A stretch of DNA of 35,547 nucleotides, taken from contig CAMVHE010000027.1 in assembly GCA_947167215.1 (NCBI GenBank), positions 1 to 35,547 of the forward strand. Reading direction: 5' to 3'. The DNA comes from an uncultured Clostridia bacterium (GTDB lineage: Bacteria > Bacillota > Clostridia > Christensenellales > Aristaeellaceae). Every line of letters starts with the position of its first letter. Position 1 is the first letter of the stretch. The notes under the pieces were generated by a model. It ran no database searches and was not told the origin of the DNA. It was given only the letters and a program-made list of their open reading frames with translations. The position numbers and the translations under genes were made by a program. This document shows positions 26,015-30,815 of this stretch, piece after piece.

Positions 26015-28426
26015 GTGAGCGAGCCTTACAATCCAAAAAAAATCGAACCCAAATGGCAAAAAAAATGGGCAGATTCGCACTGCTTCGAAGCAGAGGCAAG
26101 TCATGACAAGCCTAAGTACTATGCTTTGATTGAGTTTCCATATCCATCCGGACAGGGATTGCATGTCGGACATCCCCGCAGCAACACGGCGATGGATATT
26201 ATTTCGAGAAAAAGAAGAATGGAAGGTTACAACGTTCTTTTTCCGATCGGCTGGGATGCTTTTGGCTTACCTACGGAAAACTATGCGATTAAGAATCATG
26301 TGCATCCTGCTGGTGTAACGAAGGCCAATATCAATCATTTCCGGGAGCAGCTCCAGAAGATAGGTTTCTCCTTTGATTATTCCCGGGAAGTAAACACCAC
26401 GGATCCAAACTATTTCAAATGGACGCAGTGGATTTTCCTGCAGCTTTACAAACATGGTCTTGCCTATAAGACTGAAATGCCGGTAAACTGGTGCCCAAGC
26501 TGTAAGTGCGGTCTGGCAAATGAAGAAGTTGTGGCAGGAAAGTGCGAGAGATGCGGTACGGAAGTCATTCGCCGGGTCAAAAGCCAGTGGATGCTGAAAA
26601 TCACAGCATATGCCCAGAAGCTTCTGGATGGTCTTGACGATATTGATTTTATCGAGAAAGTCAAGACGCAGCAGCGTAACTGGATTGGACGCAGCGAAGG
26701 TGCTGAGGTGGAATTCCAGATTGCTGGCACGGACCAGAAGCTCAAGGTATATACCACCCGTCCGGATACCCTCTTTGGTGCAACCTATATGGTTGTAGCT
26801 CCTGAACATTCCGTAGTGGACGAACTGAAGGATCGTATCACCAACTGGGATGAAGTTGTGGCCTATCGGGAACAGGCAGCAAAGAAGAGTGATTTTGAGC
26901 GCACGGAGCTGGTTAAGGAAAAAACCGGTGTTGAAATTAAGGGAATCAAGGCCATTGATCCGGTAAACGATAAGGAAATTCCTGTTTTTATTGCGGACTA
27001 TGTCCTCTCAACTTATGGAACCGGTGCTATTATGGCAGTTCCTGCTCATGATAGCCGTGACTGGGAGTTTGCCAAAAAGTATAATCTTCCCATTATTGAA
27101 GTGGTCGCAGGCGGCGCCGATGTGCAGCAGGAGGCATTTACCGATGTAGAGACCGGAACCCTGATCAACAGTGGATTCCTCAACGGTCTTTCCGTGGCAG
27201 ATGCAAAGAAGACCATCATCAACTGGCTTGCAGAGCATCACATTGGTGAAAAGAAGGTAAACTACAAGCTTAGAGACTGGGTCTTCTCCCGTCAGCGTTA
27301 TTGGGGTGAGCCGATTCCGCTGATCTATTGTGAAAAGTGCGGATGGCAGCCTGTTCCGGAAGATCAGCTCCCGGTACTTTTGCCGGAAGTAGACAACTAT
27401 GAACCTACGGATTCCGGTGAAAGCCCGCTCTCCAAGATCGAGTACTGGGTGAATACCACCTGCCCCTGCTGCGGCGGCCCGGCAAAGAGAGAAACAGATA
27501 CGATGCCTCAGTGGGCAGGATCTTCCTGGTATTTCCTGCGTTATGCAGATCCTCACTGTGATACCGCACTGGCCAGATTCGAAGAGCTCAAGTACTGGAT
27601 GCCCGTTGACTGGTACAATGGCGGCATGGAACATACTACGCTGCATCTGCTCTATTCCCGTTTCTGGAATCTTTTCCTCTATGACATTGGTGCCATTCCG
27701 AACAAGGAAGCATACCAGAAGCGCACAAGCCATGGAATGATCCTGGGCGCCAATGGCGAGAAGATGAGCAAATCAAGAGGCAACGTGATTAACCCGGATG
27801 ATACCATTGATGAAATCGGAGCAGATGCTTTCCGGCTTTATGAGATGTTCATGGGTGCCTTCGATCAGGCTATTCCGTGGTCAACTGAAGGTGCAAGGGG
27901 ATGCCGTCGTTTCCTTGATCGTGTATGGCGTCTTCAGGATATTCTGGTTGAGGATAACGGGGAACGTCATGATATGGAAGTAGCAGTCAATGCTATGATC
28001 AAAAAGGTTTCCACCGATTATGAAAGGATGAAATTCAACACGGCGATTGCAGCCATGATGAGCTTTGTCAATGAAGTTTATAACAAAGGCAGCATCACCG
28101 TGGATGAAATGAAAGGGCTCCTGCTCTGTCTGAATCCTGTAGCACCGCATATTACTGAGGAAATGTGGGAAGCCAACAACTTTGGCGCACCGATCTATAC
28201 GCAGAAGTGGCCTTCCTGGGATGAGTCCAAGCTGGTGCTGGATGAAGTGGAGATTGCAGTACAGATCCGTGGAAAAGTACGCGGCAAGATCATGGTCTCG
28301 ACTTCCCTGACCAAAGACGATGCAGATAAAGTCCTCGAAAATCCGAAAGTCAAAGAATTGGTTGGAAATGCCCAGATTAAGAAGGTTATTTTCATTCCTG
28401 GAAGACTGATCAATATCGTTTGCTAA
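26015..28426 (+). CDS. leuS: Leucyl-tRNA synthetase
   Basis: A class I synthetase charging tRNA-Leu. It is full length at 803 residues. The HIGH motif is HVGH at 50-53, the KMSKS motif is at about 583-587, and the CP1 editing domain lies between (TTRPDTLFGATYMVVAPEH). Two Cys clusters, CPSCKCGLANEE...CERCG and CEKCGW...CPCCGG, look like zinc knuckles. WAGSSWYFLRY precedes the catalytic half. The GTG start has GGGAGGG at a good distance. It is monocistronic: its own promoter lies upstream and a strong hairpin follows 10 bases after the stop. Confidence 0.98.
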   Translation: MSEPYNPKKIEPKWQKKWADSHCFEAEASHDKPKYYALIEFPYPSGQGLHVGHPRSNTAMDIISRKRRMEGYNVLFPIGWDAFGLPTENYAIKNHVHPAGVTKANINHFREQLQKIGFSFDYSREVNTTDPNYFKWTQWIFLQLYKHGLAYKTEMPVNWCPSCKCGLANEEVVAGKCERCGTEVIRRVKSQWMLKITAYAQKLLDGLDDIDFIEKVKTQQRNWIGRSEGAEVEFQIAGTDQKLKVYTTRPDTLFGATYMVVAPEHSVVDELKDRITNWDEVVAYREQAAKKSDFERTELVKEKTGVEIKGIKAIDPVNDKEIPVFIADYVLSTYGTGAIMAVPAHDSRDWEFAKKYNLPIIEVVAGGADVQQEAFTDVETGTLINSGFLNGLSVADAKKTIINWLAEHHIGEKKVNYKLRDWVFSRQRYWGEPIPLIYCEKCGWQPVPEDQLPVLLPEVDNYEPTDSGESPLSKIEYWVNTTCPCCGGPAKRETDTMPQWAGSSWYFLRYADPHCDTALARFEELKYWMPVDWYNGGMEHTTLHLLYSRFWNLFLYDIGAIPNKEAYQKRTSHGMILGANGEKMSKSRGNVINPDDTIDEIGADAFRLYEMFMGAFDQAIPWSTEGARGCRRFLDRVWRLQDILVEDNGERHDMEVAVNAMIKKVSTDYERMKFNTAIAAMMSFVNEVYNKGSITVDEMKGLLLCLNPVAPHITEEMWEANNFGAPIYTQKWPSWDESKLVLDEVEIAVQIRGKVRGKIMVSTSLTKDDADKVLENPKVKELVGNAQIKKVIFIPGRLINIVC

Positions 28427-28435
28427 ATACAATTA

Positions 28436-28468
28436 TTAGCACTCGTTTTAAACGAGTGCTATTTTTTT
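28436..28468 (+). promoter_or_regulatory. CIRCE operator that doubles as leuS terminator
   Basis: TTAGCACTC (28436-28444), nine bases, GAGTGCTAT (28454-28462) matches the CIRCE consensus TTAGCACTC-N9-GAGTGCTAA at 17 of 18 positions; CIRCE is bound by the HrcA heat-shock repressor. The same inverted repeat (AGCACTCGTTT/AAACGAGTGCT) is followed by seven T's (28462-28468), making a textbook terminator 10 bases after the leuS stop. The htpG -35 box begins two bases after the T-run. Confidence 0.88.
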
Positions 28469-28469
28469 A

Positions 28470-28498
28470 TTGACAAGCAGATTAAAGAGCGATACAAT
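28470..28498 (+). promoter_or_regulatory. htpG promoter
   Basis: TTGACA (28470-28475), 17 bp, TACAAT (28493-28498): near-perfect sigma-A promoter directly downstream of the CIRCE element, so HrcA binding would be expected to hinder polymerase. Confidence 0.88.
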
Positions 28499-28532
28499 AC
28501 TTATCGCATTCAACCTTAGGAGGTTTATGATT

Positions 28533-30482
28533 ATGGAAAAAATAAATGGAAATGTGTCTATTGAGGCACAAAATATAATGCCGGTAATTAAAAAATGGCT
28601 CTATTCTGATAAAGATATTTTTATCCGGGAGGTTGTTTCCAACGGAAGCGATGCCATAACAAAACTCCGCATGATTGACTTTTCGAAGGCACAGAATTGC
28701 TCTATCCATGTGGAAGTGGATAAAGACAAGCGCGAACTCCGCTTCATTGATGACGGCATCGGAATGACGGCGGAAGAAGTGAAACAGAATATCAATCAGG
28801 TAGCTTTTTCCGGAGCAAAGGCATTCCTGGAGGAATACAGCAAAACAGAAGGACAGGAAGATGCAGGCATCATCGGACATTTCGGTCTTGGATTCTTCTC
28901 TGTGTTCATGGTATCCGATCAGGTAACCATTGAGACCCTTTCCTACAAAGAGGGATCTGAGCCTGTATGCTGGGAGAGCACGGACGGCATGTCCTTCTCC
29001 ATGAAAGATGGTACCCGTACAGAACACGGAACCACCATTATTCTTCATATTGCAGAAGCAGAAGATGAGTTTCTGGATCTGTGGCGCGTACGTCAGGTGC
29101 TGGATCGTTATTGTTCCTTCATGCGTGTACCGATCTATCTGAAGGACTGCAGCAAGAAAGAAGAAGAGCCGAAGGATCAGGCTTCAGAAGAAGCAGAAGA
29201 GAAAGCAGAAGAGGAAACCAAAGAAACGCCGATTAATGATGTACAGCCGCTGTACGCAAAAGCGCCGCAGGATTGTACAGATGAGGAATATAAAGAGTTT
29301 TACAAGAAGACCTTCCATGAGTATGATGATCCTCTTTTCTGGATCCATCTGAATGTGGATTATCCTTTCAAAATGAAAGGCATCCTTTATTTCCCGAAGC
29401 TTCATGAACAGTTTGGCGGAATTGAAGGACAGATCAAGCTCTATTCCAATCAGGTTTTTGTTGCGGACAACATTAAGGAAGTTATCCCGGAATTCCTGAT
29501 GCTTCTCAAGGGTGTTATTGATTGTGCTGATTTTCCGCTGAATGTTTCCCGTTCTTTCCTCCAGAATGACGGTTATGTAAAACGTATAAGCAATCATATT
29601 ACCAAGAAGGTTGCGGACCGTCTTACCGGAATGTTCAAGACGGAACGGGAGAATTACGAGAAATTCTGGCCGGACATTCATCCGTTTATCAAGTATGGAA
29701 TTATGCGCGATGAGAAGTTCGCAGAACGTATGAAGGATTATGTCCTTTATAAGACTACGGATAACAAGATGGTTACCCTGCAGGAGTATCAGGATAAGAA
29801 TAAGGAGAAATTGCCGGAGAAAGTTATCTATACCACGGATCCTGCCCGTCAGACAGCAGCAATCAAGATGTTTACTGATAACGGCATGGATGTAGTGGTG
29901 CTGGATCAGGTCATTGACGTGAACTTCATTTCCTATATGGAATACTCTGCCGGTGAAGATAAAAAGATCAAGTTCTGCCGTGTGGATTCTGAACTGGACA
30001 GCCTGGTTTCCAAGGATGAGGAAGCAAATACTGTCAATTATGATAAGCTTTCGGAGATTTTCAAGGCAGCAGCTAACAATGATACTGTCAATGTGGAACT
30101 CAAACCGATCGCGGATGTGGATGTTCCGGTAATGCTGGTGGAAGAAGAACAGTCTCGTCGTTTCAATGATATGAATCGTTATTATGGCAGAGATTCGTTC
30201 AATATGCCCACTAAGTGTGATATTGTGCTGAACAGCAAGAATTCCATTATTGAAAAAATTTCGAACATGGATACAGAAGATGGAAAACTGATTGCAAAGC
30301 AGCTCTATGATCTTGCGGAAATGTCCAGAAAACCGCTTGAAAATGACCGGATGGCTGAATTTATTAAGCGTTCTTTGTCAATCGTAAATATGGCGATGGA
30401 CAACGTAAAGGCATCCAGTGATGTTACCATTGAAACAGAATCAGCAGAAAAGAATGCTGAAGACCAGCAGGAAAACGCTTAA
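28533..30482 (+). CDS. htpG: Molecular chaperone HtpG (Hsp90)
   Basis: An ATP-dependent Hsp90-family chaperone, cytoplasmic dimer. It has 649 residues with the N-terminal GHKL ATPase (EVVSNGSDA around 33-41, DDGIGM at 73-78, GHFGLGFFSVFMV near 115-127), a middle domain (DPLFWIHLNVDYPFKMKGIL) and a C-terminal dimerisation domain. It is somewhat longer than typical bacterial HtpG. Between N and M domains (about 207-232) it carries a Lys/Glu-rich linker (SKKEEEPKDQASEEAEEKAE), and the C terminus is an acidic tail. I use ATG 28533, nine bases after AGGAGG; an ATG six bases earlier would be too close. Heat-shock control by HrcA is inferred from the CIRCE element upstream. Confidence 0.97.
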   Translation: MEKINGNVSIEAQNIMPVIKKWLYSDKDIFIREVVSNGSDAITKLRMIDFSKAQNCSIHVEVDKDKRELRFIDDGIGMTAEEVKQNINQVAFSGAKAFLEEYSKTEGQEDAGIIGHFGLGFFSVFMVSDQVTIETLSYKEGSEPVCWESTDGMSFSMKDGTRTEHGTTIILHIAEAEDEFLDLWRVRQVLDRYCSFMRVPIYLKDCSKKEEEPKDQASEEAEEKAEEETKETPINDVQPLYAKAPQDCTDEEYKEFYKKTFHEYDDPLFWIHLNVDYPFKMKGILYFPKLHEQFGGIEGQIKLYSNQVFVADNIKEVIPEFLMLLKGVIDCADFPLNVSRSFLQNDGYVKRISNHITKKVADRLTGMFKTERENYEKFWPDIHPFIKYGIMRDEKFAERMKDYVLYKTTDNKMVTLQEYQDKNKEKLPEKVIYTTDPARQTAAIKMFTDNGMDVVVLDQVIDVNFISYMEYSAGEDKKIKFCRVDSELDSLVSKDEEANTVNYDKLSEIFKAAANNDTVNVELKPIADVDVPVMLVEEEQSRRFNDMNRYYGRDSFNMPTKCDIVLNSKNSIIEKISNMDTEDGKLIAKQLYDLAEMSRKPLENDRMAEFIKRSLSIVNMAMDNVKASSDVTIETESAEKNAEDQQENA

Positions 30483-30486
30483 TCGC

Positions 30487-30516
30487 TTGACATACGGTTA
30501 AACGTTGAACTATAAT
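30487..30516 (+). promoter_or_regulatory. tRNA-Ser promoter
   Basis: TTGACA (30487-30492), 18 bp, TATAAT (30511-30516): both boxes are consensus. A leader hairpin GCTGTCTTT/AAAGACAGC (30519-30541) follows. It now reads first into a truncated tRNA copy. Confidence 0.85.
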
Positions 30517-30544
30517 AAGCTGTCTTTGCCGAAAAGACAGCTAT

Positions 30545-30586
30545 GGAGCGGTATCGAAGTGGTCATAACGGCCCTGACTCGAAATC
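30545..30586 (+). pseudogene. Truncated tRNA-Ser (5' half)
   Basis: Forty-two bases match the first half of the complete tRNA-Ser(CGA) downstream with a single difference (T at 30560, C at 30742). They run from the acceptor strand through the anticodon loop and stop two bases into the anticodon 3' stem. The sequence then becomes unrelated. It lies directly behind the tRNA promoter and is best read as an attachment-site half left by integration. Confidence 0.85.
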
Positions 30587-30690: not shown

Positions 30691-30726
30691 ATTTTCCAGG
30701 AGACGAATTTGGGGGGAAATCTACCT

Positions 30727-30815
30727 GGAGCGGTATCGAAGCGGTCATAACGGCCCTGACTCGAAATCAGGTGTACGGCAACGTACCGTGGGTTCGAATC
30801 CCACCCGCTCCGCCA
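30727..30815 (+). tRNA. tRNA-Ser (CGA)
   Basis: A complete class II tRNA of 89 nt. The acceptor GGAGCGG pairs with CCGCTCC, discriminator G and encoded CCA (30813-30815). The anticodon loop CTCGAAA gives anticodon CGA for UCG codons. It has a long variable arm (GTACGGCAACGTAC) and T-arm GTGGGTTCGAATCCCAC. The host promoter is about 210 bp upstream behind a truncated copy, so expression must read through the intervening 140 bp or use another promoter. Confidence 0.96.

Follow-up and report, generated by a model that had tools for sequence, protein, structure and literature searches.

The DNA that separates leuS from htpG on a contig of an uncultured Clostridia bacterium raises the question of whether one palindrome can serve two genes, as a DNA operator for the gene that follows it and as an RNA terminator for the gene that precedes it. 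The initial annotation had proposed this arrangement for a site in the window, the 35,547-nucleotide stretch of DNA analyzed here. The upstream gene, leuS (26015..28426, plus strand; start as called with the open reading frame), encodes leucyl-tRNA synthetase (Pfam tRNA-synt_1_2, tRNA-synt_1, and Anticodon_1), and its transcript is predicted to be ended by a hairpin at 28437..28461. The downstream gene, htpG (28533..30482, plus strand), encodes Hsp90 (Pfam HSP90, E 6.4e-56) and gives the only HSP90 match in the whole genome assembly. We prefer ATG 28533 as its start for its distance from the ribosome-binding site AGGAGG, read off the sequence at 28518..28523 (plus strand), with ATG 28527 as a possible alternative. 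Beyond htpG, window positions 30544-30586 hold 43 nt that match the 5' half of tRNA-Ser(CGA) at 98% and break off within the anticodon arm; this near-copy is preceded by a 12/12 consensus promoter (30487-30516) and an inverted repeat (30518-30542), lies 182 nt before an intact tRNA-Ser(CGA) gene (30726-30815), and is possibly a duplication or integration scar.

The palindrome itself is a CIRCE operator, TTAGCACTC-N9-GAGTGCTAT, at 28436..28462 (no strand assigned), and a predicted binding site of HrcA. Against the consensus used, TTAGCACTC-N9-GAGTGCTAA, it has one mismatch in 18 positions, a T for A at the last base. At up to three mismatches this is the only match in the whole window, with 0.00 expected by chance and none in 100 shuffles, which bears out the 17/18 agreement claimed earlier for this site. 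The initial annotation had also made its case dependent on an hrcA gene; the same genome encodes one (PF01628, E 2.4e-59), and with a match to the HrcA DNA-binding domain marginally above the cut-off, both HrcA domains are present. Six CIRCE sites (up to three mismatches) occur in the genome, the one at htpG included, and a reversed control pattern gives none. They precede groES-groEL, hrcA-grpE, htpG, two hsp20 genes, and a lon-like protease gene, the last with three mismatches. One genome thus holds three CIRCE geometries: the operator may follow the -10 within the leader (groESL, hrcA), enclose TTGACA (hsp20), or precede the -35 entirely (htpG). At the two hsp20 loci (L005, L006) TTGACA lies inside a CIRCE with one mismatch, and a -35 embedded in CIRCE also occurs at htpG of L058, L083, and L086. 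The degenerate CIRCE of the lon-like gene (L007) lies immediately before that gene, and a congener (L212) has a one-mismatch CIRCE at the same position.

A consensus scan places the htpG promoter downstream of the operator, with the -35 hexamer TTGACA at 28470..28475, 7 nt from CIRCE, and the -10 hexamer TACAAT at 28493..28498 after a 17-nt spacer (both plus strand). The hexamers are near-consensus (11/12 matches), and the -10 hexamer is identical in all five aligned relatives with leuS next to htpG. The classic geometry, in which the operator overlaps the promoter or start site, is not found at htpG, where CIRCE ends 7 nt before the -35; the location of the operator off the promoter is a variant geometry, not a defining trait of CIRCE. 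A second promoter 5' of CIRCE, which would make CIRCE part of a leader, was considered at TACAAT 28428 and rejected: this hexamer has no good -35 and, judged by eye, is not conserved among the five leuS relatives.

The same DNA has the form of an intrinsic terminator. A consensus scan and folding both identify a terminator-like stem-loop of 11 bp with a 3-nt loop at 28437..28461 (plus strand), with an energy of -15.5 kcal/mol (z -6.5), a stability reached by none of 200 shuffled sequences. The CIRCE spacer, GTTTTAAAC, is itself palindromic and extends the stem beyond the operator arms. A T7 tract (28462..28468, plus strand), the predicted 3' end of the leuS RNA, abuts the stem directly; its first T (28462) is the sole CIRCE mismatch, so that the departure from consensus at the last base lets the T run begin right at the stem. 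A stable stem-loop is therefore followed at once by a T-tract, as expected of an intrinsic terminator, and the consensus scan of the plus strand from 28427 to the start of htpG finds no other terminator-like site. There are 9 nt between the leuS stop and CIRCE (28427-28435) and 10 nt between the stop and the stem, and TTGACA begins two bases past the end of the T7 tract.

We consider it probable, on these features and on the comparisons below, that the one palindrome acts both as the DNA operator of htpG and as the RNA terminator of the gene upstream. As double-stranded DNA, the 27-bp palindrome would be the htpG operator, with HrcA seated at about -70 to -43, just upstream of the -35; by analogy with the CIRCE/HrcA family, bound HrcA would exclude RNA polymerase from the htpG promoter until heat titrates HrcA. 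In the leuS RNA, the palindrome would form a hairpin of 11 bp with a U-tract behind it, and the transcript would stop a single base short of the htpG -35. What we infer here is that HrcA binds, that termination takes place in vivo, and where transcription starts. Double use would be possible because the htpG CIRCE precedes the -35 and stays outside the RNA made from the htpG promoter. With a longer stem and a T-tract, a CIRCE in a leader would cut short the very transcript that carries it; at groES and hrcA both features are nearly absent.

In its 9-9-9 palindrome, its regulator, and the heat-shock gene downstream, the site resembles class I HrcA/CIRCE systems (groESL, hrcA-grpE-dnaK). Class I sites, however, belong to the transcribed leader, where they come directly behind the -10 and precede CAA, whereas at htpG the whole site is upstream of the -35 and T takes the place of CAA. 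In L. plantarum, for example, CIRCE is described as beginning 3-4 nt downstream of the start site (PMC1676014). CIRCE control of htpG had been put forward as noteworthy by comparison with Bacillus subtilis; the hsp90 of that species is indeed placed in another class (PMC8336468), but the same account reports CIRCE upstream of hsp90 in C. cellulovorans and, as cited there, in C. acetobutylicum. A CIRCE control site before htpG is thus not new, being in print for clostridia. Those sites likewise stand before the Hsp90 gene, and the available text of that account gives neither a position relative to the -35 nor a terminator. The htpG gene of C. botulinum is heat-induced, in an account the accessible portion of which draws no tie to CIRCE (PMC3806222). 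The CIRCE of Mycoplasma gallisepticum is described for Mollicute genes (clpB, dnaK, lon, and dnaJ_2), with no mention of a terminator role in the text available. With ordinary intrinsic terminators the site shares a hairpin flush with a T-tract soon after a stop codon; it differs in that the outer nine base pairs on each side are set by the repressor, leaving only the spacer and the T-tract tunable. In terminators formed by DNA-uptake signal sequences, the DNA role is uptake and not repression of the next gene. These sequences set a precedent for a single inverted repeat with two roles, DNA signal and terminator stem (PMC1852404). A description of CIRCE as a terminator was not found in the literature searched, coverage of which was thin for subscription journals.

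Turning to relatives, CIRCE (up to two mismatches, within 450 nt of the gene) precedes htpG in 53 of 80 related loci, a few of the 80 having no upstream DNA. Judged from these matches, a CIRCE ahead of htpG is widespread among clostridia, in agreement with the published account as available (PMC8336468). At 106 htpG sites unselected for spacing, the gap from CIRCE to the -35 is 7 nt in 80 and 5, 6, or 8 nt in 8, with 18 giving no promoter call. The CIRCEs of groES and hrcA are built differently: in 53/54 the site begins 4-16 nt past the end of a -10-like hexamer, CAA follows in 41/54, and TTGAC stands just downstream in 2/54. The initial annotation had suggested looking for the same arrangement in relatives, and all six leuS-adjacent loci in the set (the window and five relatives) have three spacer pairs and at least four T in the first five positions. 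Two further features of these loci were observed. An element [CT]TGACC lies within 30 nt upstream of CIRCE in 24 htpG loci, nearly all congeners, whatever the upstream gene (L008-L011, L095, L097, L102, L104, L114, L119, L121-L124, L127-L129, L131, L133, L135-L138, and L176), and is absent from the window, L125, and L126. In a few cases (matches in G623, G667, G612, and G081), a single CIRCE is flanked on either side by TTG at a distance of 7 nt, which would suit an operator shared by two promoters pointing away from each other.

Use as a terminator predicts that the spacer is self-complementary and followed by T only where the upstream gene runs into the site. The CIRCE arms are uninformative on the conservation of pairing because they are nearly invariant. 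We scored the spacer, counting Watson-Crick cells at its three pairs over unique spacers against 3' halves re-dealt among sites. A T-tract was defined as T in at least four of the first five positions. The first set comprised 98 sites and the enlarged set 230 htpG sites from 366 loci, many of them metagenome assemblies: 238 sites were assigned to htpG, 8 that lacked TTG at the expected position were excluded, and duplicates in site and flank were removed. The CIRCEs of groES and hrcA (n=54) served as leader-located controls. To call upstream genes we used a home-made score of codon usage, blind to the CIRCE features and trained on 121 stretches, which replaced an earlier version trained on 13 GC-rich genes only; 47 of the 230 sites, for which the upstream DNA was too short or gave no confident gene, were tallied separately. 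Two other ways of calling upstream genes were set aside: rough open reading frame length mislabelled GC-rich loci, though it pointed in the same direction (fully paired 21/43 vs 14/58), and BLAST of conserved open reading frames left many loci unresolved and was used as a guide only.

Spacer pairing depends on the orientation of the neighboring gene. Behind co-directional genes that end no more than 60 nt away, 158/264 cells are paired against 80.5 expected (z 10.0), and the signal falls to 47/114 (z 2.7) behind those that end farther off. Divergent neighbors give a value close to chance (51/147 vs 45.2 expected, z 1.1), sites without an upstream call stand at 45/138 (z 1.0), and groES and hrcA fall below chance (32/162 vs 45.0 expected, z -2.5). 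All three pairs form in 30 of 88 unique spacers behind nearby co-directional genes, where 9.2 were expected and 0 of 5000 shuffles reach this number; divergent loci have a mild excess (9/49 vs 4.6 expected, reached by 157 of 5000 shuffles). Sliding the partner by 1-3 columns, which preserves relatedness, lowers pairing from 64% to 24-26% at co-directional T-tract sites, compared with 35% true and 12-27% slid at divergent sites and 20% true and 17-20% slid at groES and hrcA. Pairing is thus kept while the letters vary, a further property expected of an intrinsic terminator.

Counted by site, the contrast is present in both sets, although for the strict palindrome it weakened on enlargement. All three flanking pairs occur in 23/39 co-directional (up to 60 nt) versus 3/27 divergent sites of the first set (p 9e-5) and in 36/94 versus 9/50 of the enlarged set (p 0.014). 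The same classes also differ in the T-tract (77/94 vs 22/50, p 8e-6), in pairing and T-tract together (32/94 vs 5/50, p 0.001), and in hairpin energy (p 1e-6). Co-directional genes more than 60 nt away are followed by 8/39 paired sites and 31/39 with a T-tract; the corresponding figures are 6/47 and 24/47 for sites with no call or too short, and 1/54 and 0/54 for groES and hrcA. Within the genus of the window, fully paired sites number 10/13 behind co-directional genes at any distance, 3/12 at divergent loci, and 0/1 without a call.

These counts also bear on a rival explanation, which we regard as unlikely: that CIRCE is an operator and nothing else, the long hairpin and T7 tract arising by chance or aiding the promoter as A/T-rich DNA upstream of the -35, while the leuS RNA ends elsewhere or continues into htpG. 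The T-tracts before the -35 in 22 of the 50 divergent loci are what such an explanation would lead one to expect; they make the T-tract alone weak evidence, and some of the T bases may be there for the promoter. Many co-directional spacers, moreover, are only partly paired, the complete set of three occurring in the 36/94 noted above. Chance, however, does not explain the pairing at co-directional T-tract sites (z 10) or the result with slid partners, and at the locus itself the plus strand offers no other terminator-like site before htpG.

The signal recurs in loci added later, once the hypothesis had been formed, for which the selection required a perfect CIRCE and TTG 7 nt beyond it and ignored spacer and T-tract. 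Of these, 60 were returned by searches and 80 were hand-picked for genus spread, a choice that was not blind because the spacer and T-tract letters were visible. With one repeat removed, the later loci give 93/168 cells (z 6.7) for co-directional and 17/63 (z -1.0) for divergent neighbors, compared with z 7.0 and 2.7 in the earlier loci. The 57 search-returned sites give z 5.9 co-directional and 1.0 divergent (n=8), and the 75 hand-picked sites z 3.4 and -2.2; in the latter, despite the cell count, there is no excess of spacers with all three pairs (3/27 vs 2.2 expected). Related sequences are not independent. Thinning to at most 75% HtpG identity leaves a mean z of 5.3 for co-directional versus -0.1 for divergent sites (20 draws); thinning at 65% left too few rows. 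One site per upstream-gene family, over 43 families, gives a mean z of 6.0 (30 draws), and 14 of the 43 families include a fully paired site with a T-tract. Phylogenetically independent pairs scored for both features run 5.2 for and 0.7 against, of 17 (median p 0.125), which is not significant in a test that was underpowered in both sets (78 and 209 tree rows, with 7 pairs in the smaller set).

An improbable alternative is that the palindromic spacer and T-tract act in DNA alone and not in RNA, improving HrcA binding or DNA bending where CIRCE precedes the -35. Such a function would account for fully paired spacers in 35/101 htpG sites versus 1/47 groES and hrcA sites, and for the mild excess of fully paired divergent sites. 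Yet divergent htpG sites occupy the same position relative to the -35 and have a cell count near chance, overall and in the later loci; dependence on the orientation of the neighboring gene is unexpected of a function in DNA alone and counts against it. That the hairpin chiefly guards the upstream mRNA against exonucleases attacking its 3' end, rather than ending transcription, is very improbable, since although a strong hairpin past a stop codon would suit either role, pairing at nearby co-directional sites tracks the T-tract (137/213 cells with it, z 10.1; 21/51 vs 16.3 expected without it, z 1.4), a signature of intrinsic termination.

Returning to the palindrome as operator and terminator, the comparative pattern suggests that this double use has been selected for, rather than being coincidental, where a co-directional gene ends close upstream. 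The original claim that both elements reside in one palindrome has gained compatible features at the locus and a comparative signal of selection, and the interpretation as a whole is partly supported. A further step, in which the palindrome would be a switch coupling leuS and htpG, appears unlikely: bound to CIRCE, HrcA might form a roadblock and so displace or impair the leuS 3' end, and polymerases leaving leuS might evict HrcA or, paused at the T7 tract, occupy the htpG promoter. If true, this coupling would link upstream transcription to Hsp90 induction in clostridia, with many genes as the upstream partner.

The sequence evidence points to a repressor operator recruited as an intrinsic terminator behind many different upstream genes. 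It suggests a rule whereby an operator upstream of its promoter may turn terminator, while one in a transcribed leader must not. The finding bears on the packing of signals in compact genomes, on the prediction of operon boundaries, and on possible coupling between the elongation of one gene and the repression of the next, for which the HrcA system is small and easily tested.
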